The notes under the pieces were generated by a model. That model made no database searches. It was not told where the DNA came from and saw nothing but the letters and a program-made list of their open reading frames with translations. A program made the position numbers and the translations under genes. Shown piece by piece: positions 88 to 13,159 of a stretch of 13,159 nt of DNA. Within the stretch, counting starts at the first letter, position 1; the number at the start of each line of letters is the position of its first letter. The stretch spans positions 1-13,159 of the forward strand of contig MCBC01000005.1 of the NCBI GenBank assembly GCA_001723855.1. The letters are read 5' to 3'. This stretch comes from Candidatus Altarchaeales archaeon WOR_SM1_86-2. Lineage in GTDB: Archaea; Altiarchaeota; Altiarchaeia; IMC4; MCBC01.

Positions 88-100
88 TCAACATAAGGAT

Positions 101-706
101 TTATCTTTTTGATAATTTGATTAGTACGAGTACTATGACAATTATAGCTATGCATGCTATAATTATATTCCTCCATCTGTGATCATCTTTTACATAAACA
201 TTGATACTTGCTTCATTATTACTTTCATTTGACTCTTTTATTTGGTCAAAAGGATCTGCTTTTATTGTTATTTCATGATGTCCAGGTAAAGGTTCCCATA
301 TAAACTTAACACGCTTTTCATCTTTAGAATGCACATCAAAATATTTTTTCTTTACTAACATACCTACAACAACACATGATTCGCTTTCACAAGGAGTTGG
401 TCCTTCATTTACTAACATCGTGATATCTTCTTTTAGTTTACCATCAACAAAGAATCCTAATGTAACATTGTTGGCATCTCTTTCACCACGGTTTTTTATC
501 AAACATGATATGCTAATATTATCTTCCCCACTCTCGTTCATATGCTCTATCATATAATTTATTCTTTCTTCATTAATATCCTCCACAGTTATGTCTGGTA
601 GTGAAGAGGCAAAACTCTCATCCTCTTCATCTTCATATCCAGCGACCCCGCTGGATAGTAATACAACTAGCGCAAGTCCTATTATTATTTTACTTTTATT
701 TTCCAT
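101..706 (-). CDS. Secreted CARDB-domain protein with C-terminal membrane anchor
   Basis: A 201-residue protein of likely extracellular location. It opens with a signal peptide (residues 1-23: Lys-containing start, hydrophobic core LALVVLL, small residues VAG before an acidic stretch). The middle (about 38-172) looks like one CARDB domain, a beta-sandwich adhesion module of archaeal and bacterial surface proteins. Typical features are 'IKNRGERDANNVTLGFFVDGK' near the start and 'IKESNESNNEASINVYV' at the end. A hydrophobic helix at about 178-197, followed by LSKR, should anchor it with the CARDB domain outside. The start at 704-706 is the one that gives the complete signal peptide. It is the last gene of a minus-strand series and is separated from the nuclease gene before it by two hairpins. 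Two Cys about six residues apart (in the CESESC stretch) could form a disulfide. The ligand is unknown. Confidence 0.75.
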   Translation of the reverse strand: MENKSKIIIGLALVVLLSSGVAGYEDEEDESFASSLPDITVEDINEERINYMIEHMNESGEDNISISCLIKNRGERDANNVTLGFFVDGKLKEDITMLVNEGPTPCESESCVVVGMLVKKKYFDVHSKDEKRVKFIWEPLPGHHEITIKADPFDQIKESNESNNEASINVYVKDDHRWRNIIIACIAIIVIVLVLIKLSKR

Positions 707-722
707 TTACTTTTGATTTTAT

Positions 723-762
723 TCGGCACCCCGTGCCGATCTGCAAGTGCCCTCGCACTTGC
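723..762. repeat. Two adjacent perfect hairpins between nuclease and CARDB genes
   Basis: The first palindrome has 7-bp arms TCGGCAC/GTGCCGA (723-729, 733-739) around a CCC loop. The second has 8-bp arms GCAAGTGC/GCACTTGC (743-750, 755-762) around CCTC. Both are perfect, GC-rich and unlike the AT-rich surroundings, and they lie in the 70-bp gap between two minus-strand genes. They could form RNA stem-loops acting as a terminator, processing or stability element, or be a small mobile repeat. Neither arm is followed by a long T run, so a classical intrinsic terminator is not clear. Confidence 0.7.
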
Positions 763-776
763 ATTGCCCTACATCT

Positions 777-1856
777 TCATCCTTCTTCATCATTATTTTT
801 TTCCATTAACTTATCAGGTAGTTTCATTCTTTCCAGCCGCTGCTGGATAAGTTTTTTATCCGGAAGTTTGGTCTGATATGCAGAAATCCTTACCTGATCG
901 TGGGTTTTACTTAAAGTTAGGCGAACAATGCTTTCTTTTTTTGAGCGGCAGAGAATCAAACCGATTGATGGTTTTTCATCAGGAAGTTTTATTTGCTCGT
1001 CAAGAACCCCTAAATAAAACTGCATTTTTCCCACATACCCTGGTTTGAAGTCGCCTATTTTGAGTTCAACGGGCACAAGGCATTTAAGTTCCCTGTGGAA
1101 AAATAATAAGTCAATTCTGAATGTCTCATTGTCAACTACCAACGGATATTCTTCACCGACGAAAGTTAAGTTTTTTCCAAATTCAAGAAAGAACACCCTG
1201 AGGTTTTCAAGGATTGCTCTCATTAGTTCTTTTTCAGAGAAAGTCTCTGAAAGGTCTAAAAATTCTAAAATGTATTCGTCTTTTAAGTGGCGGTGAATGT
1301 CATTTATTGGAATTGCGAGTTTATTCTGCTCTATTTCCATCAGTTTATCAGCATCTTGGGATAACATGAATCTTTCAAAATAAGCAGAGTCAATCTGGCG
1401 TTTGAGTTCTCTCTTACTCCACCTTTCTTTTAAGCACATTTTGATATAAAACTCTTTCTCTTCAATGGTTTTTGTATAATTAAGCAGGATTAAATTATTG
1501 GTCCAACTAATTTCTGCGACCAGTGGTCGCAGTTTTGCATATTCCCCATAAATAAGATAAAATCGCTTACAATCCCATAAATTCCTTGCTGAAAATCCAC
1601 TCATGTCGGGATACTCCATCCTTAAATCCGTAGATAATTTTTCAACCAATCCGTCGCCCCATTTGCTTTTCTCCTGCAGATCTACAATTCTTTCGCCAAT
1701 AAACCAGTAAAGTTCAATCAATAATTTATTTACTTTAGTGATTGCTTTATGTTTACTGTCCTCAACCTTCTTTATGATAAAGGACAATGATTTTTCGTAA
1801 TCCTGCTCTTGTACACGCGTTATTTCAATATCTGTTCCTGTTTTATTCATCATCAT
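777..1856 (-). CDS. YhcG/DUF1016 family PDDEXK nuclease
   Basis: A 359-residue protein with the two-part architecture of the DUF1016 (YhcG) family. The N-terminal domain (about 20-165) contains the family-typical 'YWFIGERIV', 'WGDGLVEKL' and 'SGFSARNLWDCKRFY' stretches. The C-terminal PDDEXK nuclease-fold domain (about 195-335) has Asp249 in 'FRIDLLFF', the E264-x-K266 pair in 'VPVELKIG', and Gln279 and Tyr281 in 'MQFYLGVLD'. The metal-binding nuclease core therefore looks intact. Such proteins are often found in mobile or defence-associated regions, but their biological role is not settled. Three Met codons in a row open the gene and any could be the start; the first is given. The gene overlaps the end of the preceding membrane-protein gene by 14 bases, which suggests translational coupling. 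Confidence 0.88.
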   Translation of the reverse strand: MMMNKTGTDIEITRVQEQDYEKSLSFIIKKVEDSKHKAITKVNKLLIELYWFIGERIVDLQEKSKWGDGLVEKLSTDLRMEYPDMSGFSARNLWDCKRFYLIYGEYAKLRPLVAEISWTNNLILLNYTKTIEEKEFYIKMCLKERWSKRELKRQIDSAYFERFMLSQDADKLMEIEQNKLAIPINDIHRHLKDEYILEFLDLSETFSEKELMRAILENLRVFFLEFGKNLTFVGEEYPLVVDNETFRIDLLFFHRELKCLVPVELKIGDFKPGYVGKMQFYLGVLDEQIKLPDEKPSIGLILCRSKKESIVRLTLSKTHDQVRISAYQTKLPDKKLIQQRLERMKLPDKLMEKNNDEEG

Positions 1857-2784
1857 TTGCTTTTTTATCCTTTAGAGCTTTAGAGAGATAATTCAAAATA
1901 AAATAACAGAATAAAAACGAAAATACAATCACTAAGACAGTAAATATGAAAGGGGGTAAAGTAAGCAATATCGGATAATGTGACTCACGATAACTCTCAA
2001 ATAATAATAAAGTTAATTTTGTCACATAATAAGTTCCGATAAAAAGATAAAGGAGTTCAATTGCGCGTTCTAAACTTATCATTTCTTTTATTCCTTTTTC
2101 AGTCATTTGCTGTGTGATATGTTGGTGCAATAAATTTGCGGTATCAGAGGATGTTTTAATTGCAGTTTTTAGTCCATATAGTTTATTATAGTCAATCTCT
2201 CTCAACAACGAATTAAAAACACCATTGTGTCTCTCCTTCCTTGATAATTCCTTTAGATATTTCAACCTCATCTCATCTTGTCTTAAAAGAGGAAGGATCC
2301 ATTCATTCTTTTTAAAAAGATTGTCCAATGGTTTTAATTTTGGAGATTTCCCTTTTTCTACCTTTTTCTTCTCTACATACACCTTTTTTATAAGTTCTTC
2401 ATATTCTGCCCGTGTCTTTTTCAGATGTTCTGTTTCTAAATTCAGTGTTGTTTCTAATGATTCGGATATATCTTTCTCAAAATATTCTCTAAATCTTTTA
2501 TTTTCTTTTTTTCCAAAAATAAAAAATCTATTTTCAATTCTTGCTAAAGATACATCATCAAAAGTTGAATTAATTTGTGAAAACTCTCTTAAATTGTTTT
2601 CAGAAATCTCAGTAGATACAATAATGGTTTTATGATCTTCGGATACTTCTTTTTTTAATTCGCTAATGCTTTCAACAGAACCTATTCCTGCAGGATTTGG
2701 ATTTAATTCAATCCACCCATCATCAGTTAAGTTCTGTTTATATGCCGTTTCTACTATTGTTATTTTATTTTTATGTGTCATCAT
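1843..2784 (-). CDS. Two-TM membrane protein with long coiled-coil-like cytoplasmic part, unknown function
   Basis: No family recognised. The 313 residues divide into a soluble N-terminal part (1-105), a highly charged helical region rich in Lys and Glu (about 100-185) that could be coiled coil, and two C-terminal hydrophobic segments (about 242-262 and 272-299) ending in a charged tail, KALKDKKANDDE. This predicts a protein anchored by a C-terminal helical hairpin with the bulk on one side of the membrane. The start is well supported: AGGAG lies 4 bases before the first of two adjacent ATG codons (7 before the second). The start overlaps the stop of the TPR gene (2781) and the end overlaps the start of the nuclease gene, so the three genes form a tightly coupled unit. 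Confidence 0.72.
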   Translation of the reverse strand: MMTHKNKITIVETAYKQNLTDDGWIELNPNPAGIGSVESISELKKEVSEDHKTIIVSTEISENNLREFSQINSTFDDVSLARIENRFFIFGKKENKRFREYFEKDISESLETTLNLETEHLKKTRAEYEELIKKVYVEKKKVEKGKSPKLKPLDNLFKKNEWILPLLRQDEMRLKYLKELSRKERHNGVFNSLLREIDYNKLYGLKTAIKTSSDTANLLHQHITQQMTEKGIKEMISLERAIELLYLFIGTYYVTKLTLLLFESYRESHYPILLTLPPFIFTVLVIVFSFLFCYFILNYLSKALKDKKANDDE

Positions 2785-3735
2785 CTCACTCCTTTAAAAT
2801 ATGTAAAGGCGCCCTCTATTTCTTCTTCTGTAAGTTTCCATTCAATTAATTTATCAGCAATTTCTAAAAACTTCCTGCCATTTTTATAATCTTCAAACTT
2901 CTTTCCTGCAACGGGATCTATAATTCCCATTTCTTCTATTAATCTCTTTGCTTTTTCACCAATTTGCTTTTTATCCTTATCAATAGAGATTAAACAAATA
3001 TTTAAGAGAACTATAATCTCATGGTATTTGTCGCTAATCTCTTCAACAATATCTAACGCATCCGCATAATACTCATACGCGTCTTCCAGTTTATTCTGTT
3101 TGCGATAAACATCGCCCAAATCGATATAGGAACTGTATTCTCCGGTTTTGTAACCAATTTCTTTATCAATTTTCAGGGATTTCTCATGGAATTCAATCGC
3201 TTTCTTAAAATCATTTAAACCACAATAAGATTTACCAAAACCACTATAACACTCAGATTCAGCTACTCTTGCACATGTTTCTTTTATCAACTTTAGAGCG
3301 GATTTGTAACTTTCAATTGCATCTTTAAAATTTTCTTTGTTGCAGAAGGCATTACCTAAATTTGTATAACATTTAGATTCACCTGACAGGTCACCAATAT
3401 CTTTATTAATTTTCAGAGATTTCTCATGATATTCAATCGCTTTCTTAAAATCCCCTAACTATCATAAGCATTACCTAAATTTGTATAACATGCAGATTCA
3501 CCTGGCAGGTCTTTATTTTGAATGAAATAATCAAGTGCGTGTTCCCATAATGCTAAAGCGGGTTTGAAATAAGAAACATTAGCAAACATAAGTCCGAAAC
3601 TCAAAAATAAATTTCCTTTCTCATTATCGGGGTATTTAATTTTTCAGATAAATTCTCCATTACATTAATAAATTCCTCGGGGTTATCTTTACATTTCCCT
3701 GCTAATTGTAAGATAATTTTTTCTGTTTCATCCAT
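2781..3735 (-). pseudogene. TPR-repeat protein gene broken by two single-base deletions
   Basis: The gene should encode about 318 residues starting at the ATG at 3733-3735, but is split into three frames. The first frame (MDETEKII...ENLSEKL) is lost at about 3638-3645. The second (YPDNEKGN...YTNLGNAYDS) meets a stop at about 3457. The third runs open to the TGA at 2781. One added base at each point restores one continuous protein of 40-residue TPR units, such as 'LGDFKKAIEYHEKSLKI' and 'CYTNLGNAFCNKENFKDAI'. The longest single-frame piece can be read from a TTG at 3288-3290, but its coding frame continues upstream of that, so the TTG is not a natural start. TPR proteins are protein-binding scaffolds. 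Its end overlaps the membrane-protein gene. The breaks may be true decay or read errors beside A/T runs; the rest of the sequence is well preserved, which favours recent damage or error. Confidence 0.8.
3181..3512. repeat. 120-bp internal direct repeats encoding TPR units
   Basis: Near-identical stretches recur at the spacing of one 40-residue TPR unit. The 32 bases from 3181 and from 3421 differ at two positions and are exactly 240 bases apart. The stretch beginning GCATTACCTAAATTTG at 3349 recurs at 3468, 119 bases later. The one-base shortfall falls where the reading frame breaks, which confirms the missing base near 3457. Such repeats allow gain or loss of TPR units by recombination. Confidence 0.8.
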
Positions 3736-3765
3736 TTTTTGAATTATAATCGCTATATTTTGCGA

Positions 3766-4254
3766 TCAGATATGAAACATGTCTTCAGGTATTTTTTCAT
3801 CTGAGAGTACCAATATACGGTTAGTTTTACGGTGAATAAAAATCCCAAATTCATCCAATATATCCCTACCTAAAAGTGATGGAATCCCCTGATATAACAC
3901 TCTCAACCTTTCTTTTTCTTTCTGTGGAATTTCATCAGGAATCTTATTCTTCATAACTAAAATATTTATCCGATCAATATGCTCTGCTGACAACTTAATT
4001 ATTGCTTCAGTTTCATAAGTTTCTACACTACCGCCAATGCCACATAGATCTTTGTTGGTTTTCTTTAGTTTGTCATAGCCAATTCTGAGTCGCGATACAT
4101 CTTTTTCTGAAATTGCGGTTCTATCTGCTCCAGTATCTACTAAGAACCAGATATAATCAGTTGTGTTTAATTCAGGGAAGGATATCTCCGCCGATACAAA
4201 TGGATGATAGAATCCGCCTTCTTTAAAATATCCCCCTCTAATAATCATTTTCAT
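3766..4254 (-). CDS. Retropepsin-like aspartic protease
   Basis: A 162-residue single-domain protein of the retroviral-type aspartic protease fold (clan AA). The active-site motif is D40-T41-G42-A43 in 'FLVDTGADRTAIS'. The second hallmark, a hydrophobic-Leu-Gly-Arg-Asp stretch ('SLLGRDILDEFGIFI', about 124-138), stands where the family has its ILGRD/LLGRD motif. Proteins of this size work as homodimers, each subunit giving one Asp. No signal peptide or membrane segment is seen, so a cytoplasmic location is likely. The substrate is unknown. The start overlaps the stop of the preceding 83-residue gene by ATGA, so the two are translationally coupled. Met3 is an alternative start. Confidence 0.82.
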   Translation of the reverse strand: MKMIIRGGYFKEGGFYHPFVSAEISFPELNTTDYIWFLVDTGADRTAISEKDVSRLRIGYDKLKKTNKDLCGIGGSVETYETEAIIKLSAEHIDRINILVMKNKIPDEIPQKEKERLRVLYQGIPSLLGRDILDEFGIFIHRKTNRILVLSDEKIPEDMFHI

Positions 4255-4502
4255 AAAATCATAATGGTCTCCTTTGTAGAGAGATACTCAACCACTGCTT
4301 TTCCGGGAGATATTCCATGTTTCGCTAAATCACCTATTAATGTATTTAAATCCTTATTTACACCCACAACCCTGTGATGATATATGCCCACCCAGTTGTT
4401 TGGATACTTTTCTGTTAGTTCATCTTTATGATCTATGAAGTATTTAACATCCTCCCTAAAATCCTTCAATGCCCCTTCATGAATATTCAAATAAGATTCC
4501 AT
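4251..4502 (-). CDS. Small DUF5678-like protein paired with aspartic protease
   Basis: An 83-residue soluble protein. The central 'NNWVGIYHHRVVGVNKDLNTLIGDLAKHGISPGKAVVEYLS' resembles the small archaeal/bacterial DUF5678-type family: a short beta hairpin ('this is what I carry, here is when I use it' pattern of xVAVxxxxVVGxxxD), a helix, then a 'G-hydrophobic-x-P' turn and a final strand. That family is, to my knowledge, often found next to retropepsin-like proteases, as here (ATGA overlap with the protease gene). Its role is unknown; a regulator, inhibitor or substrate-presenting partner of the protease is a guess. A TATA-like element sits about 30 bases upstream, so this gene probably begins the transcript. 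Confidence 0.65.
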   Translation of the reverse strand: MESYLNIHEGALKDFREDVKYFIDHKDELTEKYPNNWVGIYHHRVVGVNKDLNTLIGDLAKHGISPGKAVVEYLSTKETIMIL

Positions 4503-4585
4503 TTTACTAATTATTATTAATTGGATTTGATTATAAAAGTATAATTTTGTTTTCTTTTGAATTAAATTTTTTCTTGTTTGTCATC
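4503..4585 (-). promoter_or_regulatory. Probable archaeal promoter for the DUF5678-protease pair
   Basis: On the minus strand TTTTATAA (plus-strand 4531-4538) lies 29-36 bases before the ATG at 4502, preceded by an A-rich stretch that could hold a BRE. The spacing fits transcription starting a few bases from the ATG. No Shine-Dalgarno sequence is seen. The rest of this 83-bp gap is AT-rich with no visible structure. Confidence 0.4.
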
Positions 4586-5590
4586 TTATACAACCTTCCC
4601 TTTTAACTCCTCAACCTTTACGGATGCGGTTAAAAACATCGCTATCTCAAATTCCGCAATAAACTGGTCCAGGTATTCACGAACCCCTTTTCTTCCGTCC
4701 TTTGCCCACGCCCTGAGTATGGGCAGTGCCATACCGACGCAGTCTGCCCCCAGGGCGATGGCCTTTGCAGCGTCAACTCCGGTTCTGATCCCCCCGGAGG
4801 CAATTACCGGCGTGCTTCCATTCGATAATTCCTTTACGCACCGGGCGGTAGGAATCCCCCAGTCGGCAAACAATTTCCCGGTTTTTCTGTGCCGCTTATC
4901 CCCCCTGTAGCTTTCGACAAGAGCCCATGATGTTCCCCCCACCCCTGCGGCATCAACCGCATCAACCCCCAGTCTGCGGGCAATATCATAGGAAATCCCT
5001 GAGCCAACACCCTTCACAATGACCTTTATGCTGTCATCTCTCAATTCCTTCGCGATTTCATTAATCTTCTCTACAAGCCCGGAAAAGTTCCCCTCCCCCT
5101 CTATCTGGACCACCTCCTGCAGCGGATTTATATGCAGGGCTAAAGCATCGGCGTTAATCATCTCAACCGCCTGCTTACATTCCTTAACGCCGTAACCGTA
5201 ATTAAACTGCACTGCTCCGAGATTCCCGAGCAGCAATATATCGGGAGCGACATCCCTCACCTTGTAAGTGTAAGCCGTCCTGGGGTCTTCGATTGCCGCC
5301 CGCTGGCTTCCAACACCCATCCCGATGTTCAACCCCTGGGCGACAAAAGCCAGATCCTTGTTTATCTTTTCGGCATCATGCGCACCGCCGGTCATGCCCT
5401 CTATGATTACCGGATAACTTAACCTCTTGTTAAAAAATTCTATTTCCGTGTTAATTTCATCAAAATCAATCTCCGGGCAGGAATGATGAGCCAGTTTCAC
5501 TTCCTCAAACCCCGCACTGCCTGATTCAACATCCTTTTCAATACAAATCTTTAAGTGCTCAAGTTTCCTGTTGTTGATATTAATCGCCAT
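4586..5590 (-). CDS. fni: Type 2 isopentenyl-diphosphate delta-isomerase (FMN-dependent)
   Basis: This enzyme interconverts isopentenyl and dimethylallyl diphosphate at the end of the mevalonate pathway, feeding archaeal isoprenoid lipid synthesis. It is a cytosolic flavoprotein needing reduced FMN and Mg2+. The 334 residues have the normal length and motif order of the TIM-barrel family: 'GMTGGAHDA' near residue 65, 'GMGVGSQRAAIEDP' (about 91-104), 'LGNLGAVQ' (about 121-128), 'LHINPLQEVVQIEGEGNF' (about 152-169) with the Gln/Glu positions expected to bind diphosphate and metal, 'VKGVGSGIS', 'AAGVGGTSWALVE' and the phosphate-binding 'ASGGIRTG'. The start at 5588-5590 places the usual short N-terminal extension before 'RKLEHLKIC'. 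It is divergent from the QueD-like gene with 44 bases between starts. Base composition is higher in GC than in the accessory genes downstream. Confidence 0.95.
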   Translation of the reverse strand: MAININNRKLEHLKICIEKDVESGSAGFEEVKLAHHSCPEIDFDEINTEIEFFNKRLSYPVIIEGMTGGAHDAEKINKDLAFVAQGLNIGMGVGSQRAAIEDPRTAYTYKVRDVAPDILLLGNLGAVQFNYGYGVKECKQAVEMINADALALHINPLQEVVQIEGEGNFSGLVEKINEIAKELRDDSIKVIVKGVGSGISYDIARRLGVDAVDAAGVGGTSWALVESYRGDKRHRKTGKLFADWGIPTARCVKELSNGSTPVIASGGIRTGVDAAKAIALGADCVGMALPILRAWAKDGRKGVREYLDQFIAEFEIAMFLTASVKVEELKGKVV

Positions 5591-5634
5591 TATTTTTAAT
5601 TTAACTCAAAAACGGATAAATAAATAAAGTAGAA
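5591..5634. promoter_or_regulatory. Divergent promoter region between fni and queD-like gene
   Basis: All 44 bases between the two starts are AT-rich. For fni (minus strand) a TTTATTTATTTA element lies about 26-38 bases before its ATG. For the plus-strand gene TATTTTTAATTTA (5591-5603) lies about 31-44 bases before its ATG. The two elements are crowded, so shared control of both genes is possible. Neither start has a Shine-Dalgarno sequence. The assignment is by position and composition only. Confidence 0.4.
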
Positions 5635-6099
5635 ATGAAAATTGAAATACATAACATGGAATTTAGCGCAGCACACTTTTTGATTGAGCACGATAAATGC
5701 TCCCGCATGCACGGGCATAACTGGAGATTGAGCGTCGTGGGGGAGGGGGAGATTGATAAGAATGGGTTTGTGATGGATTTCAGCGAGTTCAAGAGGGTTG
5801 TAAGAGGGGTTGTTGTGAAGTACGATCGCAGGATTTTGATCCCAACGGAGAATGAACAGATAAAGATCAAAGAAATCGATAGCGAACTTGAATTGTCTGT
5901 GGGGGATAAGAGCTACGTTTTTCCAAAAAGAGATTGTTTGCTTCTGCCATTGAGCAATGTGACCTGTGAAGAACTTGCCGTTCTGTTCTGGAATGAAATC
6001 AGAAATAAACTGGGGAGGGTGTTTGAAAGCATGGAGGTTCTCATTGAAGAGAAGAAAGGGCAGGGTGCGAGATACAAGAAGATGGTACGGGGGATCTAA
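5635..6099 (+). CDS. QueD / 6-pyruvoyl-tetrahydropterin synthase family protein
   Basis: A 154-residue T-fold enzyme acting on dihydroneopterin triphosphate. Archaeal members usually make 6-carboxytetrahydropterin for preQ0/archaeosine, or another pterin. Zinc ligands are visible: His14 in 'FSAAHF' and His26 and His28 in 'CSRMHGH', with Cys22 as the catalytic Cys. 'FVMDFSEFK' (45-53), 'NVTCEELAVLFWNEI' and the late Glu in 'MEVLIEE' also fit the family. One key position differs. Where the family has Asp-His of the catalytic triad ('LDHxxL'), this protein has Asp64-Arg65 in 'KYDRRILIP', and the Arg codon CGC is one transition from CAC. The family-typical region after it is also longer (about 72-95). 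The reaction is therefore uncertain. The stop codon touches the end of a decayed metF fragment on the other strand. Confidence 0.82.
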   Translation: MKIEIHNMEFSAAHFLIEHDKCSRMHGHNWRLSVVGEGEIDKNGFVMDFSEFKRVVRGVVVKYDRRILIPTENEQIKIKEIDSELELSVGDKSYVFPKRDCLLLPLSNVTCEELAVLFWNEIRNKLGRVFESMEVLIEEKKGQGARYKKMVRGI

Positions 6100-6206
6100 A
6101 ATGTCGACGACCGCCTTAAGCGCTCTGGCATTCCCACCGGGCATGATGCAGACCCCTTTACTCAAAGGTCTTTTATCTCATCCATGAGGTCAATACATGG
6201 ATTAAT
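6098..6206 (-). pseudogene. Remnant of the 3' end of a second metF gene
   Basis: The minus strand here reads, with one stop and one lost base, 'NPCIDLMDEIKDL', a TGA, then 'KGVCIMPGGNARALKAVVDIL'. This matches the last 37 residues of the intact metF in this window ('NLCIDLVDEIKGLGMKGVHIMPVGNVRALKAIVDRL'). The DNA also aligns with about 7927-8036, with a one-base gap in a C/G run and roughly three quarters of bases equal by eye, so it comes from a diverged paralogue rather than a fresh copy. It begins at the stop codon of hdrB and ends at the stop codon of the queD-like gene, so both neighbours abut the scar. It suggests that a metF once lay directly downstream of hdrB and was lost. Confidence 0.82.
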
Positions 6207-7086
6207 CATCTTTTGTTATTCTATCTATTTTTTCAATCAATCTGTCTGTTTTTACCCTGTTCATCCAGAATCCGAGATCATCCGCGTTAAAGCCCATCGC
6301 CAGCCCTAGCAGCTGCGGATAATAAAGCACAGGAATGTCATAGTCTTCACCAAACACAGAATTAATTTTTCGTTGGTTTGCATCATACATAATGCCGCAG
6401 AAAGGGCAGATTAATGCAATTCCATCAGCCCCTGCATTTTTTATGCAATCCAGCTTTTCCCGGGACATGGTTAAAGCAATATTCTCATCTATGCTAAGAA
6501 TCCCGCCTCCGCAGCATTGCTTTTTATTCATATAGTTAACGGACTCTGCACCGGTTATTTCAATTAGTTTGTCAAGGCTTTCCGGATCTTCAGGATTATC
6601 AAGGTTATGTATATACGAGGGTTTCAAATAATGACAGCCGTAGTGCGGAGCAATTTTTAAATTGGTCAGCGGCTTTACGATATGCCCTTTAATTTTACCG
6701 ATATTTTCATACAATACTCTTGCGAAATGTTTTACCTCAACAGAACCGTTGTACTCAAATCCTATTTCTTTTAGTTTTGCATTAATATTGCCCCTGAATT
6801 CGACATTTTCTTTCATCTCCTTATTAACCTCTGCAAGCACACCCGTGCACGCGCTGCATAATGTGCAGATATCCAGACCTTTTTTCTCCGCCTGCGCGAG
6901 GTTCACTGCGGCAGTTAATGCAAACGCCTCACGATTCACTGACTTGATGGGAAATCCGCAGCATTCGAACTCAATATCGATTAGATCAATACCCATTTTT
7001 TCAGCTACCTTGCGAACGGATATTTCATAGTTCATTGCCCTTACAGGGATCGTGCAGCCAATGAACAGCGCGTATTTATTGCTCAT
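6202..7086 (-). CDS. hdrB: Heterodisulfide reductase subunit B homologue (HdrB)
   Basis: HdrB holds two noncubane [4Fe-4S] clusters that reduce or form the CoM-S-S-CoB disulfide in methanogens; homologues also serve other electron-transfer complexes. The 294 residues have both CCG domains with all ten cysteines. The first set is C11, C42-C43, C77 and C80. The second is C151, C191-C192, C227 and C230 ('HYGCHYLKPS', 'QCCGGG', 'CPFCG'). The C-terminal 'VLYYPQLLGLAMGF' is also typical. No membrane segment, so cytosolic. The start overlaps the end of hdrC by 11 bases, indicating coupled translation and an HdrBC unit. HdrA is not encoded next to it. The physiological substrate cannot be read from sequence: a complex with MetF/MetV is suggested by the neighbourhood. 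The metF remnant begins at its stop codon. Confidence 0.92.
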   Translation of the reverse strand: MSNKYALFIGCTIPVRAMNYEISVRKVAEKMGIDLIDIEFECCGFPIKSVNREAFALTAAVNLAQAEKKGLDICTLCSACTGVLAEVNKEMKENVEFRGNINAKLKEIGFEYNGSVEVKHFARVLYENIGKIKGHIVKPLTNLKIAPHYGCHYLKPSYIHNLDNPEDPESLDKLIEITGAESVNYMNKKQCCGGGILSIDENIALTMSREKLDCIKNAGADGIALICPFCGIMYDANQRKINSVFGEDYDIPVLYYPQLLGLAMGFNADDLGFWMNRVKTDRLIEKIDRITKDD

Positions 7087-7579
7087 CTTTACCTAACAAC
7101 TTATTTAGTTTTGAAATTTTGAATATACACTGAATATTTTTGTTATCCATATGTATCTCGGGCAATCCCCCCCTCATTCTCTTTTTATTATCAAACTCAC
7201 CTACCGCATACAACCTGCCATGCTCCCCAAGTAGTTCAATTTGTTTTTTAAGTGAGCCATGAATATACCCCCTTTCAACTGCCATATTCTTCAGGGCGTC
7301 CATCACTTCCGTTAATTTGACATCCTGCGGACATCTCTCATAGCAGGTGTAGCATGTGCTGCACAGCCATATGAAATCTTCATCAAGCACATCAACGCCA
7401 AGAAGCATCATCCTCACTATCTTTCTTGGATTATATTTATTGTCAATTCTCATTACAGGGCAGCTGGCCGTACATGTCCCGCAGCCAAAACACTTGAGTA
7501 TGTCGCCCTTTGTTCTCTGGATTAGATCTTTTCTTAGTTCCTCATGATGGGGTGATCTAATTGTTTCTTCCTTCTTCAT
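7076..7579 (-). CDS. hdrC: Heterodisulfide reductase subunit C homologue (HdrC), two [4Fe-4S] clusters
   Basis: A 167-residue iron-sulfur protein that relays electrons to HdrB. Two complete CxxCxxCxxxCP motifs are present: C30, C33, C36, C40 ('CFGCGTCTASCPV') and C73, C76, C79, C83 ('CSTCYTCYERCPQD'). The helical region between and after them, and a C-terminus of about 80 residues, match the soluble HdrC size class. There are no membrane helices, so it is not the HdrE/DsrM type. Overlap with hdrB by 11 bases makes an hdrCB pair. The start at 7577-7579 follows an AT-rich stretch with only a weak purine run. The 347 bases separating it from metF are decayed sequence, so it may have its own promoter rather than read-through from metF. 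Confidence 0.93.
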   Translation of the reverse strand: MKKEETIRSPHHEELRKDLIQRTKGDILKCFGCGTCTASCPVMRIDNKYNPRKIVRMMLLGVDVLDEDFIWLCSTCYTCYERCPQDVKLTEVMDALKNMAVERGYIHGSLKKQIELLGEHGRLYAVGEFDNKKRMRGGLPEIHMDNKNIQCIFKISKLNKLLGKDEQ

Positions 7580-7926
7580 CTTATCTTATTATTAAAGTTA
7601 AAAAACAATGATAAATCAAAATTTTCTTGTTTATTCCCAAATCCGCAGAATTTCATATGTTTTTCAGGTGTTTGTAGCGGAACCATTATCCTTGTTACAC
7701 TGTACAAGGAACCGATTAATTTTTTCCTCATACCAAGGAAATGCGCCAGGGATGATATATCCATGGATCTCATTTAAATCCTTGATAGCTTCTATATGCC
7801 TTCGCTGTTTAATTATCATTGGACATAACCGGATTATCAAATAATTCAGCAATCATTTTCCGGATGCCTAAACCCCAGGCATGCGAGTTTCCACTCATGC
7901 AGAACTCAAATTCCTGATACCCGAAT
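7580..7926 (-). pseudogene. Decayed coding remnant(s) between metF and hdrC, origin unknown
   Basis: This 347-bp stretch has no intact gene. Minus-strand pieces look protein-like but are broken. One frame overlapping the metF stop reads 'YQEFEFCMSGNSHAWGLGI' and 'RKMIAELFDNPVMSNDN' before a stop at about 7818. A second, shifted frame reads 'RRHIEAIKDLNEIHGYII' and 'PGAFPWYEEKINRFL' (about 7694-7800) and stops. A third gives 'MVPLQTPEKHMKFCGFGNK' nearer hdrC. The succession of overlapping frames in one direction suggests one or two genes with frameshifts and stops. I do not recognise the family. The 7580-7610 part is AT-rich and could hold an hdrC promoter. Confidence 0.45.
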
Positions 7927-8847
7927 TTATAACCTGTCAACAATAGCCTTCAATGCCCTCACATTCCCTACCGGCATGATATGAACCCCCTTCATCCCAA
8001 GACCTTTTATTTCATCCACCAGATCAATGCATAGATTTATGCCAGCGTCCTCGATTAGTCCTTTCCTGCCCGTTCTTTTCTGCTCATCACTTGCTTCTTT
8101 TACAGAGTTTACGATCTTATCTTTAATTACAACCCCCGGCATTGTTAACAAATACTGCATCATCCCATAACTTCTTATCGGCACAATCCCGACAAGTGTT
8201 TTGCTCGCTATATCCCCCCCTATTAATCTATCATAGAGATTCAGGAAATCCCGCATTGGCTCTATGTCAAAAATCCCCTGCGTCTGGAAGAAATCCGCTC
8301 CGGCATCAAGTTTGCGTTTTGTTTTATAAACCTCGCCGTCAAGCGGCGAAGATGTCGGACCGATTGCCGCACCAATAAAAAAATTCGTTTTCCCGTTCAT
8401 ATCCTGGCCGTTCAGCATCTTTCCATCATTCAGCATCTTCATTGTTTTTATCAAAGTTGCAGAATCGAGATCATATACAGGCTTTGCCCCCTTATGATCG
8501 GATGCCATACACGCTGGATGGTCTCCCGTAAGCGAGAGAATATTTTCAATTCCAAATGCAGCCCCTGCAATAAGGTCCGCCTGCAGTGCAGCCATATTTC
8601 TGTCCCTCACAACCATCTGAAATATCGGCTCAACTCCTTTTTGTAGCATATAAATACTTGCTCCAAGAGAACTCATAAGCACTCTTGCCCCTGGGAGATC
8701 AACAACGTTCACGCCCTCTATCTTATCCATTAAATGCTTCATCTCTTCCACTTCATGGGCGTATTCAGTCATATCCGGCCCGGGCGGAGGGGAGGCTTCC
8801 CCGGTTGCTATAAACTTTTTTCCGAAATTATCCCTTAATTGGCTCAT
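7927..8847 (-). CDS. metF: MetF-type methylene-tetrahydropterin (folate/methanopterin) reductase
   Basis: MetF interconverts methylene- and methyl-tetrahydrofolate; in archaea lacking Mer it is proposed to act on tetrahydromethanopterin. The 306-residue TIM-barrel flavoprotein shows Glu17 in 'ATGEASPP' (the catalytic Glu of the family), 'VVRDRN' (residues 79-84, usually TCRDRN), 'LSLTGDHP' (104-111, with the Asp that contacts the pterin), 'FFIGAAIGP' and 'DFFQTQGIFD'. It has no C-terminal regulatory domain, as in short prokaryotic MetF proteins that pair with MetV. MetV is encoded 313 bases upstream on the same strand with a small gene between. No Shine-Dalgarno is seen; a TATAAAAT (8865-8872, minus) 18-25 bases before the ATG suggests a leaderless transcript. 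An NADH dependence cannot be judged by eye; pairing with MetV and HdrBC favours an iron-sulfur electron donor. Confidence 0.92.
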   Translation of the reverse strand: MSQLRDNFGKKFIATGEASPPPGPDMTEYAHEVEEMKHLMDKIEGVNVVDLPGARVLMSSLGASIYMLQKGVEPIFQMVVRDRNMAALQADLIAGAAFGIENILSLTGDHPACMASDHKGAKPVYDLDSATLIKTMKMLNDGKMLNGQDMNGKTNFFIGAAIGPTSSPLDGEVYKTKRKLDAGADFFQTQGIFDIEPMRDFLNLYDRLIGGDIASKTLVGIVPIRSYGMMQYLLTMPGVVIKDKIVNSVKEASDEQKRTGRKGLIEDAGINLCIDLVDEIKGLGMKGVHIMPVGNVRALKAIVDRL

Positions 8848-8917
8848 TTTTAATTTTTTTGTTTATTTTATATTTGAATTTTTTAACTGTCATATAAAGT
8901 ATGCTTTTTAGATCCCT
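8848..8917 (-). promoter_or_regulatory. Possible promoter for metF
   Basis: The 70-bp gap before metF is very AT-rich. On the minus strand TATAAAAT (plus 8865-8872) ends 18 bases before the start codon, and a second TATA-like CTTTATATG lies about 20 bases further up. The first would place transcription start at or next to the ATG. metF could equally be expressed by read-through from metV. Confidence 0.35.
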
Positions 8918-9130
8918 TTATGATTTTAATTTCTCAAGATTAACTTCAAATTCATCGTCACTCAAACATCCACGAAGAATGCTTGAAACAACATCCCCTG
9001 GATCAATACCAAGATTAGCAAAAACACTTTCGGATATTTTAATTTCTTTTAAAATATGATTATTAATATCCCTAACTATAATATTTATTTCTCTCCCACC
9101 TGGATGGTTTACTTCGATATATTTTGTCAT
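8918..9130 (-). CDS. Small unknown protein encoded between metV and metF
   Basis: A 70-residue acidic soluble protein with no cysteines except Cys55, no signal peptide and no membrane segment. I do not recognise a family. The N-terminal half is strand-like ('REINIIVRDINNHILKEIKI'), the second half helical ('SVFANLGIDPGDVVSSIL', then an acidic tail). The reading frame is credible because the start has the best Shine-Dalgarno in the redox cluster: AGGAG (plus-strand 9137-9141 as CTCCT) with six bases to the ATG. It begins 29 bases after the metV stop, so it is likely translated from the metV transcript. Position suggests an accessory, assembly or regulatory role for MetVF, but that is inference. 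Confidence 0.65.
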   Translation of the reverse strand: MTKYIEVNHPGGREINIIVRDINNHILKEIKISESVFANLGIDPGDVVSSILRGCLSDDEFEVNLEKLKS

Positions 9131-9159
9131 TTTAATCTCCTACATTTTTTTAATTATTT

Positions 9160-9723
9160 TTATCTATTGGCTTTTGGCATTCTTGTTTCCATGAATTTAT
9201 TAGATTCGTTATTTGCAACCATTCGCATGCAGATTTCATTCCATCCGCACTTTATTTCTTTTTTGGAAGTAGATAATTCGCACAAACCATCATGCACCCC
9301 TGCACAGGGTCCATTGAGTAGCGATTTTTCGCATCGTGCTTTTGGGCATATACTCCCGGTTTCGTCAATCATGCAGTCCCCGCATGCAATGCAGTACTTT
9401 GAAATGCTCCCGTCTTCATTTTTAACCCCGATTCCCATGGTGTCTGCAACCGGGACGACGGTTTTGTTCAATGCGTCCCCCACGACCTGAACACCGGCAC
9501 CGCATGCCAGTACAAAAATTGTTCCATCAGCGCCTATGTTTACCTCAGGTCTGTTGCACATCGTAGGTATTTTAACAACTTCGGCATTTAATTCATTTCC
9601 CAATTCTTCAATTTCATCTTTTGAAAAGTTCCAATTACCGCACAGTGTGCAAACAACAAGTTTGTTGTTGCCTTTACCCCATGCCTTCAATTTCTCTTTG
9701 TTCTTTATCTGCAAAATTATCAT
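9160..9723 (-). CDS. metV: MetV, zinc/iron-sulfur partner of MetF (MTHFR C-terminal family)
   Basis: MetV forms the complex with short MetF proteins in acetogens such as Moorella and links the flavin to iron-sulfur partners. The 187 residues contain an N-terminal domain with cysteines C25 and C28 in 'VVCTLCGNW', another in 'TMCNRPEV', and 'FVLACGAGVQVV' (about 90-101). The C-terminal MTHFR_C domain is rich in Cys: 'YCIACGDCMIDE', 'GSICPKARCEKS', 'GPCAGVHDGLCEL' and 'IKCGWNEICMRM'. These should ligate an iron-sulfur cluster and/or zinc. The length is slightly shorter than typical MetV. It is the first gene of the redox cluster. The start at 9721-9723 lies about 30 bases after a TATA-like element and has no Shine-Dalgarno, so it is probably leaderless. 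Confidence 0.9.
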   Translation of the reverse strand: MIILQIKNKEKLKAWGKGNNKLVVCTLCGNWNFSKDEIEELGNELNAEVVKIPTMCNRPEVNIGADGTIFVLACGAGVQVVGDALNKTVVPVADTMGIGVKNEDGSISKYCIACGDCMIDETGSICPKARCEKSLLNGPCAGVHDGLCELSTSKKEIKCGWNEICMRMVANNESNKFMETRMPKANR

Positions 9724-9762
9724 TTTATTTTTTTAATTATTAATTATTTAAAAATATAAGTT
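9724..9762 (-). promoter_or_regulatory. Probable promoter for metV operon
   Basis: The minus strand carries TTATATTT (plus 9752-9759) 29-36 bases before the metV ATG, within a stretch of almost pure A/T. That spacing implies a 5' leader of only a few bases and fits the lack of a ribosome binding site. No operator is obvious apart from the inverted repeat at 9782-9807 just upstream. Confidence 0.45.
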
Positions 9763-9781
9763 AAAATCGGGCATGTTCCAT

Positions 9782-9807
9782 AATCAGAATACTTATGTTT
9801 TCTGATT
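9782..9807. repeat. Perfect 8-bp inverted repeat upstream of metV
   Basis: AATCAGAA (9782-9789) and TTCTGATT (9800-9807) are exact reverse complements separated by 10 bases. The repeat lies about 25-30 bases upstream of the metV TATA-like element. Symmetry with one helical turn between half sites suits a dimeric regulator binding site. A transcription-ending stem-loop for the hps-rraA gene, which stops 123 bases away on the same strand, is the alternative. Confidence 0.5.
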
Positions 9808-9828
9808 GTTACGGCAGCATAACCGCGT

Positions 9829-9906
9829 GGAAATAAAATAGAGAATACCGCGGCATTTGACGAATGGTTTAAAAAAGTTAAAGGCGTTAAAGCGTTACCC
9901 GGGTGA
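9829..9906 (+). pseudogene. Possible scrap of a RelE/HigB-like toxin gene
   Basis: From 9841 to the TGA at 9904-9906 the plus strand reads 'ENTAAFDEWFKKVKGVKALPG'. The 'xFDEWFKKVK' pattern is close to the N-terminus of HigB/RelE-type (Gp49-like) toxins. A GTG at 9828-9830 begins 'VEIK' in another frame, as such proteins often start, so the start and body seem separated by a small insertion. Only about 25 residues remain. It could be chance resemblance. It lies in the 206-bp gap between metV and hps-rraA, which otherwise holds only the promoter and inverted repeat. Confidence 0.3.
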
Positions 9907-9929
9907 GGATAATGAGGCAGAAATGAACT

Positions 9930-11213
9930 TCAAACCTTCTCCCACTTTTTAAGGCGGCAAACCTCACTCAGCGTGGAACCCTCCCGGATTTCGCCCCTTA
10001 TCCTGTTCTCTTTCTCTAGGACATCCATCGCCCTGTTTGCAGCCTCCACAACATCTTCCCTCGGGATTATAACAACCCCGTCGTTGTCCCCCGTTATCCA
10101 GTCCCCGTTCCTTATCATTGCCCCGTCGATTTCTATCGGAGTTCCGATTTCACCAAAGCCCCTGGGTTCGCCGGCATTTGGAGTGATAATTTTCGCAAAA
10201 ACCGGGAACTTGAGTTTTTTGATTTCCTCCGTATCCCTGACGGCCCCGTTTATCACCGCACCGGAGATTCCTTTTTTTACGCAGCTCTCGGATGCCAGCT
10301 CGCCCCACACCGCGGGCTCCATACCGCCGGCGTCAATAACAATCACATCCCCCTCCTTTGCCAGATCAATTGCTTCAACAGGTTTAGCCCAGTCCCCGGG
10401 GTAAGTTCTTACGGTGATCGCTTTCCCCACCATTTTGACGTCAGGCGTAACCGTTTTCATGTCCTTTAAAGCCCTCTGGCGGTGCAGCGCATCCGAAATA
10501 TTGGCGCAGGAGACCACCCCGAATATCTTCCTTATCTCCTCCTCAGTGCTTATCCGTTTAAACAATTCTGTTTTAACCTTTTTCCCTGTCAGCATCGCCC
10601 CCTTAATATCCCTTGCCGCTTTTTTTGCATCCTTTGCTTTGATTATAGCCCCCCCAACCACGATTATATCGGCACCTGCTTCTACTGCATCCGCCGCGCT
10701 TTCGGAATTTACCCCGCCCGCTACAGCCAGGGGAACCCTTACTTGGTCCCTCAATTTTTTTAATTCATCCACAAATCTCATCCCCTTCATTTGCTGGTCG
10801 ATAGAAACATGAACACAGATGTAATTTACACCCATTTCTTCCAACTCCAGCGCTCTCTTAACAATGTCTTTTGAGCCTATAAGATCAACCATTATCTCAC
10901 ACCCGTAATTTTTTGCCGCCTTTACGCACTCCTCAATCGTGGAATCATCCGCTACTCCTAAAACAATTACTATATCCGCCCCTGCTTTAGCAGCCGCCTC
11001 AACCTCCACCCTTCCGGTATCGACGGTCTTCATATCAGCAAGTATCCTCTTTTTCCCGAACCTTTTCTTGACGGCCCTCACCGCATCCAGGCCTTCACTC
11101 TTGATCAACGGCGTTCCCACTTCCACCCAATCCACATCTTCCTCTGTTTCCTGCGCAACCTTAATCGCGCGGTGCAGATCGACAAAATCAAGGGCTAACT
11201 GAAGTACTTTCAT
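9930..11213 (-). CDS. Fused 3-hexulose-6-phosphate synthase / RraA-like protein
   Basis: Bifunctional architecture known from archaea. The N-terminal Hps domain (residues 1-210) belongs to the OMP decarboxylase superfamily. It shows 'LALDFVD' (Asp9), the D60-x-K62-x-x-D65 motif in 'ADMKTVDTG', and phosphate-binding 'AVAGGVNSE' and 'IIVVGGAI'. It joins formaldehyde to ribulose 5-phosphate, or runs in reverse to supply ribulose 5-phosphate in archaea lacking the oxidative pentose pathway. The C-terminal domain (about 218-420) is RraA-like: 'VVSCANISDALHR', 'GKAITVRTYPGD', 'IDAGGMEPAVWGE', 'GISGAVINGAVRD' and 'GVVIIPRE'. In other proteins that fold is an oxaloacetate decarboxylase/HMG aldolase or an RNase E regulator; its role in the fusion is not established. 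The length of 427 matches other fused archaeal proteins. It is divergent from ileS. Confidence 0.92.
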   Translation of the reverse strand: MKVLQLALDFVDLHRAIKVAQETEEDVDWVEVGTPLIKSEGLDAVRAVKKRFGKKRILADMKTVDTGRVEVEAAAKAGADIVIVLGVADDSTIEECVKAAKNYGCEIMVDLIGSKDIVKRALELEEMGVNYICVHVSIDQQMKGMRFVDELKKLRDQVRVPLAVAGGVNSESAADAVEAGADIIVVGGAIIKAKDAKKAARDIKGAMLTGKKVKTELFKRISTEEEIRKIFGVVSCANISDALHRQRALKDMKTVTPDVKMVGKAITVRTYPGDWAKPVEAIDLAKEGDVIVIDAGGMEPAVWGELASESCVKKGISGAVINGAVRDTEEIKKLKFPVFAKIITPNAGEPRGFGEIGTPIEIDGAMIRNGDWITGDNDGVVIIPREDVVEAANRAMDVLEKENRIRGEIREGSTLSEVCRLKKWEKV

Positions 11214-11264
11214 CGTTTTATCTTTGCCTTTATTTAATTAAAAATAAATTAATAACCAAAAAAC
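11214..11264. promoter_or_regulatory. Divergent promoter region between hps-rraA and ileS
   Basis: The 51 bases between the two start codons are nearly all A/T. TATTTAATTAAAAATAAATT (11231-11250) sits 15-34 bases before the ileS ATG, and its complement lies 18-37 bases before the hps-rraA ATG, so the same A/T block may serve both strands. ileS has no Shine-Dalgarno (the bases before ATG are CCAAAAAAC). For the minus gene a lone AAAGG is too far (about 14 bases) to be convincing. Confidence 0.45.
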
Positions 11265-13159
11265 ATGACCAAGCAATTAAACCTGCCGGAAATAGAAGAG
11301 GAAGTTCAGAGATACTGGGAGGAAAACAGCATATTCCAGCGCCTGTGCGAGATGAGAAAAGCGGGAAAAAAATATTATTTCTGCCAGGGACCCCCATTCA
11401 CGACGGGGTATGCGCATATAGGTCATGCATGGAACCACACAATCAAGGATTTAGTTATCCGCTACAAAACAATGCAGGGCTGCGATGTTTTTAGAAGAGC
11501 GGGCTGGGACATGCACGGGCTCCCCATTGAAGTTAAAGTTGAGCAAGAAGTGCTGAAGAGCAGGAGCAAGAAGGAAATTGAAGAGTACGGGATCGATAAT
11601 TTTATCCGCGAGTGTAAAAAATTTGCAATCCAGAATATGCATGCAATGACCCGGCAGATTAAAAGGCTTGGAATATGGCTCGACTGGGATGACCCCTATA
11701 TGACAATTGATAAAAGGTATATGGAGGGCGTGTGGTTTGGAATAAAAAAAGCACATGAGCAGGATTTGCTCTACACCGACCGCAGGGTCATTCACTGGTG
11801 CCCAAGATGCGAGACAGCGATGGCAGGGTACGAGGTAAGGGACGAATACAGGGATGTTACGGACCCCTCAATTTTTGTTAAGGCAAAATTGGCAGATAGA
11901 GAAGAGTTTATATTGATATGGACGACAACACCATGGACGCTGCCGGCGAATGTCGCGATAGCGGTTCATCCCGGATATGGTTATGTCAGAGTCAGGGTTG
12001 GCGGCGAGATATTAATTTTAGCGGAAGAGCTTATTGAGGTACTTGAAAAAACCGGGCGGGAATATGAAGTCCTAAGTAAATTTAAGGGCAGCGAACTTGA
12101 AGAACTGAAATATGAACCGATGCTGAACATTCCGATACAGCGGGATTTTGAGCATAAGGTTGTTTTAGCGGCGGAACTTGTAACACTTGAGGAAGGAACG
12201 GGATGCGTTCACATCGCTCCGGGTCACGGCGTGGAAGATGAAGCAGTCGGAGTTAAATATGATCTAAAGAAATTGTCGCCGGTGGATGCATCCGGCAGAT
12301 TTACGATCGAACCCTACAGGGAGATTTATGTCAGGAATGCAAACAAGATCATAATTAACGATCTGGAAAACTCAGGGAAATTATTTAAAGAGGAAACCGT
12401 CTTTCACCGCTATCCGCACTGCTGGAGATGCAAAACGCCGTTGATCCTGAGAACAACAAACCAGTGGTTTTTAGCGGTTTCAAAAATAAAAGAAAAATTA
12501 TTGGAAAAGAATGAGGAAATTCAATGGGTGCCCGAGTGGATCGGATCGGGGGGGGACAGCAGGTTTGGGAACTGGCTTTTAAACGCCGAGGACTGGTGCA
12601 TCTCAAGGCAGCGCTACTGGAACACCCCGCTGCCGGTATGGAAATGTGAATGCGGAAACATTGAGGTGATCGGAACCATTGATGAATTGGTTGAAAAGGC
12701 GGCCCAGGATATTGATATTGAAACCCTTGACCTGCACAGGCCGGCGATTGATAGGATAACATTAAAATGTGAATGCGGAAAAGAAATGCATAGAGTAAAG
12801 GATGTAATGGACGTATGGCTTGACTCGGGATGCGCGTCATGGGCAAATTTAGGATACCCCTATAAAAAAGAAAATTTTAATGCATTATTCCCCGTTGACT
12901 TTATTACGGAAGGCAGCGACCAGACACGGGGCTGGTTTTATTCGTTGCTTGTAAGTTCCGTGATCTCATTTGACAGCATTGCATATAAACAGGTGCTGTA
13001 TCACGGCTTTACGCTGGACTCAGAGGGCAGGAAAATGTCGAAGTCACTTGGAAATGTGATTGATCCGTTGGAGATGGTTGATAAATACGGCGCAGATACA
13101 TTCAGGTTCTACATGCTGTGGACAACCGCTCCCTGGGAAGACCTCCGTTTTTCAGAAGA
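11265..13159 (+). CDS. ileS: Isoleucyl-tRNA synthetase, first 631 residues (3' end outside window)
   Basis: Class I aminoacyl-tRNA synthetase that charges tRNA-Ile with isoleucine. The frame is open from the ATG at 11265 to the window edge with no interruption. Landmarks in order: 'GPPFTTGYAHIGHAW' with the HIGH motif at 51-54; 'WCPRCETAMAGYEV', a zinc-knuckle-like region; the CP1 editing domain with 'WTTTPWTLPANVAIAV' and 'GTGCVHIAPGHGVEDE'; 'HCWRCKTPLI'; 'WCISRQRYWNTPLPVW'; 'DVWLDSGCASWA'; 'FITEGSDQTRGWFYS'; and KMSKS at 590-594. The 'DQTRGWFYS' form and overall spacing agree with the archaeal/eukaryotic-type enzyme, normally about 1,000 residues or more, so roughly the last 400 are missing. 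Apart from divergent hps-rraA, no functional link to neighbours is apparent. Confidence 0.96.
   Translation, partial: MTKQLNLPEIEEEVQRYWEENSIFQRLCEMRKAGKKYYFCQGPPFTTGYAHIGHAWNHTIKDLVIRYKTMQGCDVFRRAGWDMHGLPIEVKVEQEVLKSRSKKEIEEYGIDNFIRECKKFAIQNMHAMTRQIKRLGIWLDWDDPYMTIDKRYMEGVWFGIKKAHEQDLLYTDRRVIHWCPRCETAMAGYEVRDEYRDVTDPSIFVKAKLADREEFILIWTTTPWTLPANVAIAVHPGYGYVRVRVGGEILILAEELIEVLEKTGREYEVLSKFKGSELEELKYEPMLNIPIQRDFEHKVVLAAELVTLEEGTGCVHIAPGHGVEDEAVGVKYDLKKLSPVDASGRFTIEPYREIYVRNANKIIINDLENSGKLFKEETVFHRYPHCWRCKTPLILRTTNQWFLAVSKIKEKLLEKNEEIQWVPEWIGSGGDSRFGNWLLNAEDWCISRQRYWNTPLPVWKCECGNIEVIGTIDELVEKAAQDIDIETLDLHRPAIDRITLKCECGKEMHRVKDVMDVWLDSGCASWANLGYPYKKENFNALFPVDFITEGSDQTRGWFYSLLVSSVISFDSIAYKQVLYHGFTLDSEGRKMSKSLGNVIDPLEMVDKYGADTFRFYMLWTTAPWEDLRFSE

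Follow-up and report, generated by a model that had tools for sequence, protein, structure and literature searches.

A metV-metF-hdrC-hdrB module without an adjoining hdrA in an Altiarchaeal genome: a candidate iron-sulfur-wired methylene-tetrahydromethanopterin reductase

Gene content of the locus

The 13,159 nucleotides analysed here (the window; positions 1 to 13,159 of the forward strand of contig MCBC01000005.1, assembly GCA_001723855.1, Candidatus Altarchaeales archaeon WOR_SM1_86-2) carry genes for the reductase-family protein MetF and its partner MetV together with genes for the heterodisulfide reductase subunits HdrC and HdrB, all four on the minus strand in the order metV (9160..9723), metF (7927..8847), hdrC (7076..7579) and hdrB (6202..7086). 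A preliminary description of this DNA had proposed such a row on one strand with its cluster cysteines intact, and with no hdrA, mvhD or frhB in the window. Both points are borne out, the first by the list of open reading frames (ORFs), the Pfam matches and the cysteine positions, and the second by a Pfam scan of 16 window ORFs in which no domain of HdrA, MvhD or FrhB was detected (the list holds 35 mechanical ORFs and one open-ended, the others being mostly overlapping or antisense). Since both ends of the gene row fall inside the window, hdrA is absent from this operon. The hdrC and hdrB genes overlap by 11 bases. Between metV and metF lies an orphan minus-strand ORF of 70 amino acids (8918..9130), preceded by a ribosome-binding-site-like GGAG, whose sole database match is itself, on 6 contigs, while 347 bases (7580..7926), including a 65-residue frame without a Pfam match, separate metF from hdrC. 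Because of these two intervening stretches, co-transcription of the four genes is likely but not certain.

The hallmarks of a MetVF-type reductase are present, namely a MetF barrel with the catalytic glutamate and an adjoining MetV with PF12225 and cluster cysteines. MetF (306 amino acids; PF02219, 95.7 bits against a cut-off of 24) has Glu17, Asp109 and Gln190 in the places of Glu28, Asp120 and Gln183 of the E. coli enzyme, which correspond to positions A, D and C as given in PMC11094777. It has a leucine where E. coli has Phe223, as does the hMfr described in that source, and this residue does not decide the electron donor. MetV (187 amino acids) comprises an N-domain of a short archaeal type (residues 1-106) and a C-domain (107-187) in which the PF12225 match sits (80.6 bits against 23); it gave no NCBIfam match. 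Twelve of its cysteines, four in the N-domain (25, 28, 56 and 74) and eight in the C-domain, are conserved without exception in the 12 Altiarchaeal MetVs aligned and, by analogy with the proteins described in PMC8515935 and PMC9430772, would be compatible with two [4Fe-4S] clusters plus a zinc site; no solved structure related to MetV was found. HdrC (167 amino acids) matches the 4Fe-4S dicluster families of Pfam, with four-cysteine sites at 30/33/36/40 and 73/76/79/83. HdrB (294 amino acids; PF02754, 90.8 bits against 20.6) retains all ten cysteines of its noncubane clusters, with both CCG motifs complete (11/42/43/77/80 and 151/191/192/227/230), and aligns with solved methanogen HdrB including these cysteines (best match 8rvu_b, E 1e-74). 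Against the NCBIfam models CoB_CoM_SS_C and CoB_CoM_SS_B, HdrC and HdrB score 109.2 and 291.3 bits, under the equivalog cut-offs of 160 and 345.15, respectively.

Distribution of MetF, Mer and HdrA among Altiarchaeota

Our survey covered 29 Altiarchaeota genomes, their completeness not given, and 14 control genomes. The preliminary description had cast MetVF as a replacement for Mer, in a setting like that of Candidatus Syntrophoarchaeum and the anaerobic methanotrophic archaea of group 1 (ANME-1). The replacement is supported: Mer (TIGR03555) was found in 0 of the 29 Altiarchaeota genomes (2 of the 14 controls scored over the cut-off and 8 more below it), and a MetF relative in 25 of the 29 (E <= 0.001, distant ones included). 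The setting is a different one, since the window belongs to the Altiarchaeota, among whose 29 genomes McrA, marker of the enzyme that would make the CoM-S-S-CoB heterodisulfide, was likewise found in none (over the cut-off in 2 of the 14 controls). Replacement of the F420-dependent reductase in Altiarchaeum is already published and not new here: PMC4975002 places a 5,10-methylenetetrahydrofolate reductase within the core Altiarchaeales genome, and PMC4500143 says that Altiarchaeum uses NAD(P)H-dependent replacements.

HdrA is widespread in the lineage. Every one of the 13 genomes in which HdrB is free-standing has a strong match to HdrA as well (E below 1e-50), and the remaining three of the 16 HdrB-positive genomes (G018, G020 and G028) hold a remnant, a fragment or HdrB-like open frames of 439-451 amino acids, perhaps of a fused type. 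HdrABC and MvhD are reported for 39.1% of Altiarchaeota in PMC8407392. One genome, G011, has an hdrC-hdrB pair with no adjoining HdrA and encodes HdrA on a different contig, and is a precedent for HdrA in trans.

Linkage of MetF with HdrBC in relatives

The nearest relative of the window MetF, at 86% identity, is that of Candidatus Altiarchaeales WOR_SM1_SCG (G001), with which it pairs in the MetF tree (support 89/81; 27 of 30 rows, three fragments dropped) within a clade that includes G002, G004 and G005 (100/100). Across 30 MetF loci, where neighbour counts are lower bounds because many contigs end near metF, there are 21 with MetV (short forms included) within 3 kb of MetF, 9 with a homologue of MtdB no further than 2 kb away (PF09176 was confirmed on the two tested) and 2 with FwdA and FwdC as neighbours. 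HdrB is found within 10 kb of MetF at five loci in four genomes (G001 twice, G004, G012 and G018), and HdrA within the same distance at two (G004 and the second G001 locus).

Counted by genome, 4 of the 12 that have both MetF and an HdrB-like gene carry the two no more than 10 kb apart, one copy (G018) being broken, against a chance expectation of 0.30 with one MetF per genome (P 3e-4) or of 0.41 when second MetF copies are counted (P 8e-4); the count without the broken copy is 3 of 12 (P 0.004-0.008). Weak points of the count are that the second MetF of G001 is a distant one (28%), 5.5 kb from its HdrABC, and that the G012 HdrB runs off its contig. The linkage of MetF with HdrBC, on whose presence in relatives the preliminary description leaned, is found there and is more than chance. 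We came upon no statement of it for Altiarchaeota in the literature searched, subscription papers and supplements being outside the search. The broken G018 copy (L051:8582-8779) is an HdrB remnant situated between mtdB and metF, to which window-like HdrBs match at up to 88% over 41 amino acids.

Kinds of HdrB and the two domains of MetV

The HdrB proteins of Altiarchaeota fall into several kinds. Kind (a) adjoins MetV in G001 and G007, lies 2.9 kb before MetV in G004 and, in G003, is found where a contig ends. In three of these genomes (G003, G004 and G007), hdrC-hdrB follows a gene for an HdrA that carries an MvhD domain at its C-terminus (open frames of 1159-1190 amino acids; Pfam was run on the G007 frame), and the row continues into metV in G004 and G007, ending with the contig after hdrB in G003. 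The G001 row can be read only from shortly before hdrC, where its contig starts. Kind (b) occurs in nine genomes, in seven of which (G008, G009, G010, G012, G014, G015 and G019) HdrA and [NiFe]-hydrogenase subunits adjoin it, the latter identified by eye or through a match to a subunit identified in that way; G016 has HdrA alone and G011 neither. Kind (c) is seen in G015, where FwdA, FwdC, HdrA, a ferredoxin-like protein, HdrC and HdrB are encoded in that order on one strand (L133:2329-8988), and a similar HdrB stands together with HdrA and HdrC in G012 (L138); the G015 arrangement suggests an Hdr-fed formylmethanofuran dehydrogenase in Altiarchaeota. Kind (d) is that of the window. Its G012 copy lies in a metF-mtdB-fwdA-fwdC-hdrC-hdrB row, and the G018 remnant matches the same neighbourhood.

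The window HdrB shares just 29% identity with the HdrB that adjoins MetF in G001, whereas the MetFs of the same pair share 86%. An HdrB from Actinomycetota, not shown to be the Hakuba gene discussed below, is 61% identical to that of the window, which in the HdrB tree joins P0122 and P0123 (100/99) within a mixed bacterial and archaeal set that includes the G012 copy. The occurrence of two unrelated HdrBC types beside closely related MetFs is a new point.

A second new point is the different histories that sequence comparison assigns to the two domains of MetV. The tree of MetV (16 of 20 rows, after removal of four that were short) has a 100/100 split with the window on one side and G001, G004, G005 and G007 on the other. 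The N-domain of the window is identical to that of G001 at 12 of 66 positions and to that of G015 at 30 of 66, and does not have the VGGE stretch common to the G001-type N-domain and a bacterial MetV (Acetoanaerobium). In the C-domain tree, the window joins the clade that matches MetF (94/92). Grouping the window by N-domain with G001, G004, G005 and G007 was rejected by the approximately unbiased test (p-AU 3e-7). Grouping it by C-domain with the G015-type set was also rejected (p-AU 0.025), a moderate rejection because the groups were picked after the first trees and the alignment has only 83 columns. Our reading is that the C-domain would have remained with MetF and the N-domain arrived with the Hdr module, Hdr modules having been recruited to one MetVF on separate occasions, with MetV serving as the adapter. 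As hdrB lies directly upstream of metV in G001 (63 bases) and G007 (26 bases), one crossover within metV could import the hdr genes along with the N-domain.

At seven further loci (L043, L044, L045, L046, L047, L049 and L057), only a C-domain-like frame of 66-79 amino acids was detected ahead of MetF, with just four cysteines at four loci, one or two more at two and eight at one. Because four of these frames hold just four cysteines, most such loci are probably without the Fe-S wire, and Fe-S input to MetF may have been lost there. In G004 (L034:7707-8576) and G005 (L035:585-1451), metV and metF are separated by a gene that is ThyX-like by eye. In G007, in whose genome MetF was not found, the frame that starts as metV beside HdrA-HdrC-HdrB (L134:10701-12689) runs across a masked stretch into transposase-like sequence (by eye).

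Comparison with known systems

The module is a new form of the known Hdr-type MetVF reductase, recurring in kind, in a lineage in which neither Mer nor Mcr was found. Like the six-subunit MetVF-HdrABC-MvhD methylene-tetrahydrofolate reductase of Moorella thermoacetica and Sporomusa ovata (PMC9430772, PMC8515935), it encodes MetV, MetF, HdrB and HdrC together and would have Fe-S wiring to MetF; it differs in the lack of hdrA and mvhD from the operon, in the short type of its MetV N-domain and in its archaeal, probably tetrahydromethanopterin (H4MPT)-based, setting. The same gene order is found in the Hakuba actinobacterium, where hdrA and mvhD, absent from the window operon, stand directly upstream in one hdrA-mvhD-metVF-hdrCB cluster of a bacterial folate pathway (PMC7325909). 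Among sister Altiarchaeales, G004 and G007 likewise have MetV (in G004 also MetF) linked to HdrBC, but with HdrA adjoining and a longer, bacterial-like MetV N-domain, and the HdrB and HdrC of G003, G004 and G007 are just 28.7-29.7% and 42.7-44.2% identical to those of the window and stand in another gene order.

In Candidatus Syntrophoarchaeum, a MetFV-HdrA-MvhD cluster has been described, and MetF is proposed to substitute for Mer there and in ANME-1 (PMC9012536). The window shares a MetF proposed to stand in for Mer, and MetV beside MetF, with these archaea, yet belongs to another archaeal lineage; ANME-1 has Mcr, and the authors of PMC9012536 did not find MetF and HdrA clustered in any ANME-1 genome. 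Finally, the two-subunit MetFV of Clostridium ljungdahlii, which takes electrons from ferredoxin and not from NAD(P)H (PMC8515935), shares the MetV-MetF core and the Fe-S clusters in MetV, but is a folate enzyme with a bacterial-type MetV and is not Hdr-linked in that account.

A proposed Fe-S-wired reductase and its rivals

We consider the module most likely (with a probability of about 0.58) to encode an Fe-S-wired methylene-H4MPT reductase of the Altiarchaeales Wood-Ljungdahl pathway, in which HdrCB feeds MetVF and HdrA is most likely provided in trans. HdrC and HdrB would form an electron-delivery module ahead of MetVF, MetV would relay the electrons through its Fe-S clusters to the flavin in the MetF barrel, and MetF would convert methylene-H4MPT to methyl-H4MPT. 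The flavin-bearing subunit HdrA, for which H2, ferredoxin or NAD(P)H would be the electron source, most likely has its gene at another place in the genome. MetV would be a two-domain adapter, its C-domain constant with MetF and its N-domain varying with the electron partner. We infer alike the formation of a complex, H4MPT as the substrate, the direction of electron flow and HdrA in trans. The presence of HdrA in 13 of 13 genomes with free-standing HdrB makes HdrA in trans the simpler expectation, and the 12 conserved cysteines of MetV together with the repeated HdrBC linkage point to Fe-S input rather than NAD(P)H in this clade. Also in favour of the proposal are the MetFV of C. ljungdahlii, with ferredoxin and not NAD(P)H as its donor (PMC8515935), and pull-downs from S. 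ovata in which MetF was recovered with HdrB and with HdrA (PMC9430772). The lack of HdrA, into which the preliminary description read too much, is a feature of the operon itself and not of the lineage, given the HdrA-MvhD fusions of G003, G004 and G007 and the consistent co-occurrence of HdrA.

Several points weigh against this proposal. Placing HdrA in trans in the window organism is an extrapolation from relatives, HdrB was not found at 25 of the 30 MetF loci (many on short contigs), and hdrC is set apart from metF by the 347 bases noted above. The C-domain identities of MetV hardly differ between candidate relatives (47/81 to G001, 42/77 to G015 and 43/77 to G020), neither of the MetV groupings is starred (94/92 for the C-domain, 87/87 for the N-domain), and the groups were named only after the first trees. 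In S. ovata, pull-downs with MetV recovered HdrA and MetF without HdrB (PMC9430772), so that, given the MetF contacts of HdrB and HdrA named above, more than one surface comes into question as the receiver of the electrons.

A more specific scenario, in which the C-domain of MetV was inherited with MetF, the N-domain was swapped with the Hdr module by recombination at the domain boundary, and MetVF is now fed by HdrCB alone, without HdrA or bifurcation, can be held only as a tentative one. Doubtful as well is the related idea, stated without this history, that MetVF-HdrCB is a complete enzyme exchanging electrons between the methylene/methyl-H4MPT couple and ferredoxin or an HdrB-bound thiol/disulfide with no flavin bifurcation. 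In its favour, HdrA is outside an operon whose ends lie within the window, HdrB has lost none of its ten cluster cysteines and can be aligned from residue 5 to residue 290 with a heterodisulfide-reducing HdrB from a methanogen, and the window MetV N-domain differs from the type that adjoins HdrA in sister species. The methylene-H4MPT couple lies near -320 mV, about 120 mV below that of methylene-tetrahydrofolate. With the latter at -200 mV (PMC9430772), bifurcation at this step would yield little, so that HdrA could be dispensable. Set against this are the HdrA found in 13 of 13 genomes, the HdrABC and MvhD reported in PMC8407392, the hdrA-mvhD pair directly upstream in the Hakuba cluster of the same gene order (PMC7325909), and the presence of the short MetV N-domain also in genomes in which no Hdr was seen beside MetV. 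Were the more specific scenario true, the same methyl-branch step would use bifurcation-type hardware in one Altiarchaeale and none in its sister.

It is rather unlikely that HdrCB is a mere neighbour with a separate job, as partner of an HdrA-hydrogenase or of Fwd, while MetVF takes ferredoxin electrons directly. The 347-base gap, the C. ljungdahlii precedent of a MetFV that uses ferredoxin alone (PMC8515935) and the other Altiarchaeota HdrBCs that adjoin HdrA and [NiFe]-hydrogenase (7 of 9 loci of kind (b)) or FwdA, FwdC and HdrA (L133) would agree with such a bystander; recurrence of the linkage with two unrelated HdrB types is not predicted for one, and the HdrB type of the window has near it the G012 copy as well as the remnant found between mtdB and metF in G018. 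A MetF that serves methionine synthesis with tetrahydrofolate as its carrier, an anabolic role described for Methanosarcinaceae, would suit the folate-enzyme names of the Pfam and NCBIfam families, but is very improbable beside neighbours from the H4MPT branch (an MtdB homologue at 9 of 30 MetF loci, FwdA and FwdC at 2 of 30) and with Mer found in 0 of 29 Altiarchaeota genomes. Hardly credible is a chimeric assembly of metVF and hdrCB from different organisms, for which the 29% HdrB identity to the nearest relative and a longest listed MetF contig of 13,159 bases, the same as the window, might speak, since G012 and G018 have MetF linked to an HdrB of related type, and the HdrB and the 70-residue ORF occur on 8 and 6 contigs (the longest of 13,691 bases for both), which suggests, but does not show, a second spanning contig.

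Should a wired reductase with HdrA in trans be the correct reading, it would bear on electron handling at the methylene/methyl step in Mer-less archaea, described for ANME-1 as an important open question (PMC9012536). Related MetVFs that have an adjoining HdrA-MvhD gene in some sister species and none in others offer a natural comparison for the contribution of HdrA, and the apparently different histories of the two MetV domains provide a testable docking map for this protein.

Flanking genes

Upstream of metV and outside the module, the minus strand encodes a hexulose-6-phosphate synthase/RraA (HPS/RraA) fusion (9930..11213), beyond which a class I tRNA synthetase gene, isoleucyl by eye, starts at 11265 and diverges from the gene row. 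On the other side, a plus-strand gene of the 6-pyruvoyl-tetrahydropterin synthase family, QueD-like (5635..6099), converges on hdrB from downstream, with no same-strand gene between hdrB and it. A gene with a retroviral-type aspartyl protease domain (Pfam) lies at 3766-4254 of the window, and small protease-like genes (by eye) stand just before hdrC in G001 (L001:234-641) and G004 (L034:1794-2123). A DUF1016/YhcG family nuclease gene at 777-1856 of the window has a 33% homologue upstream of metF in G018 (L051:4540-5541).

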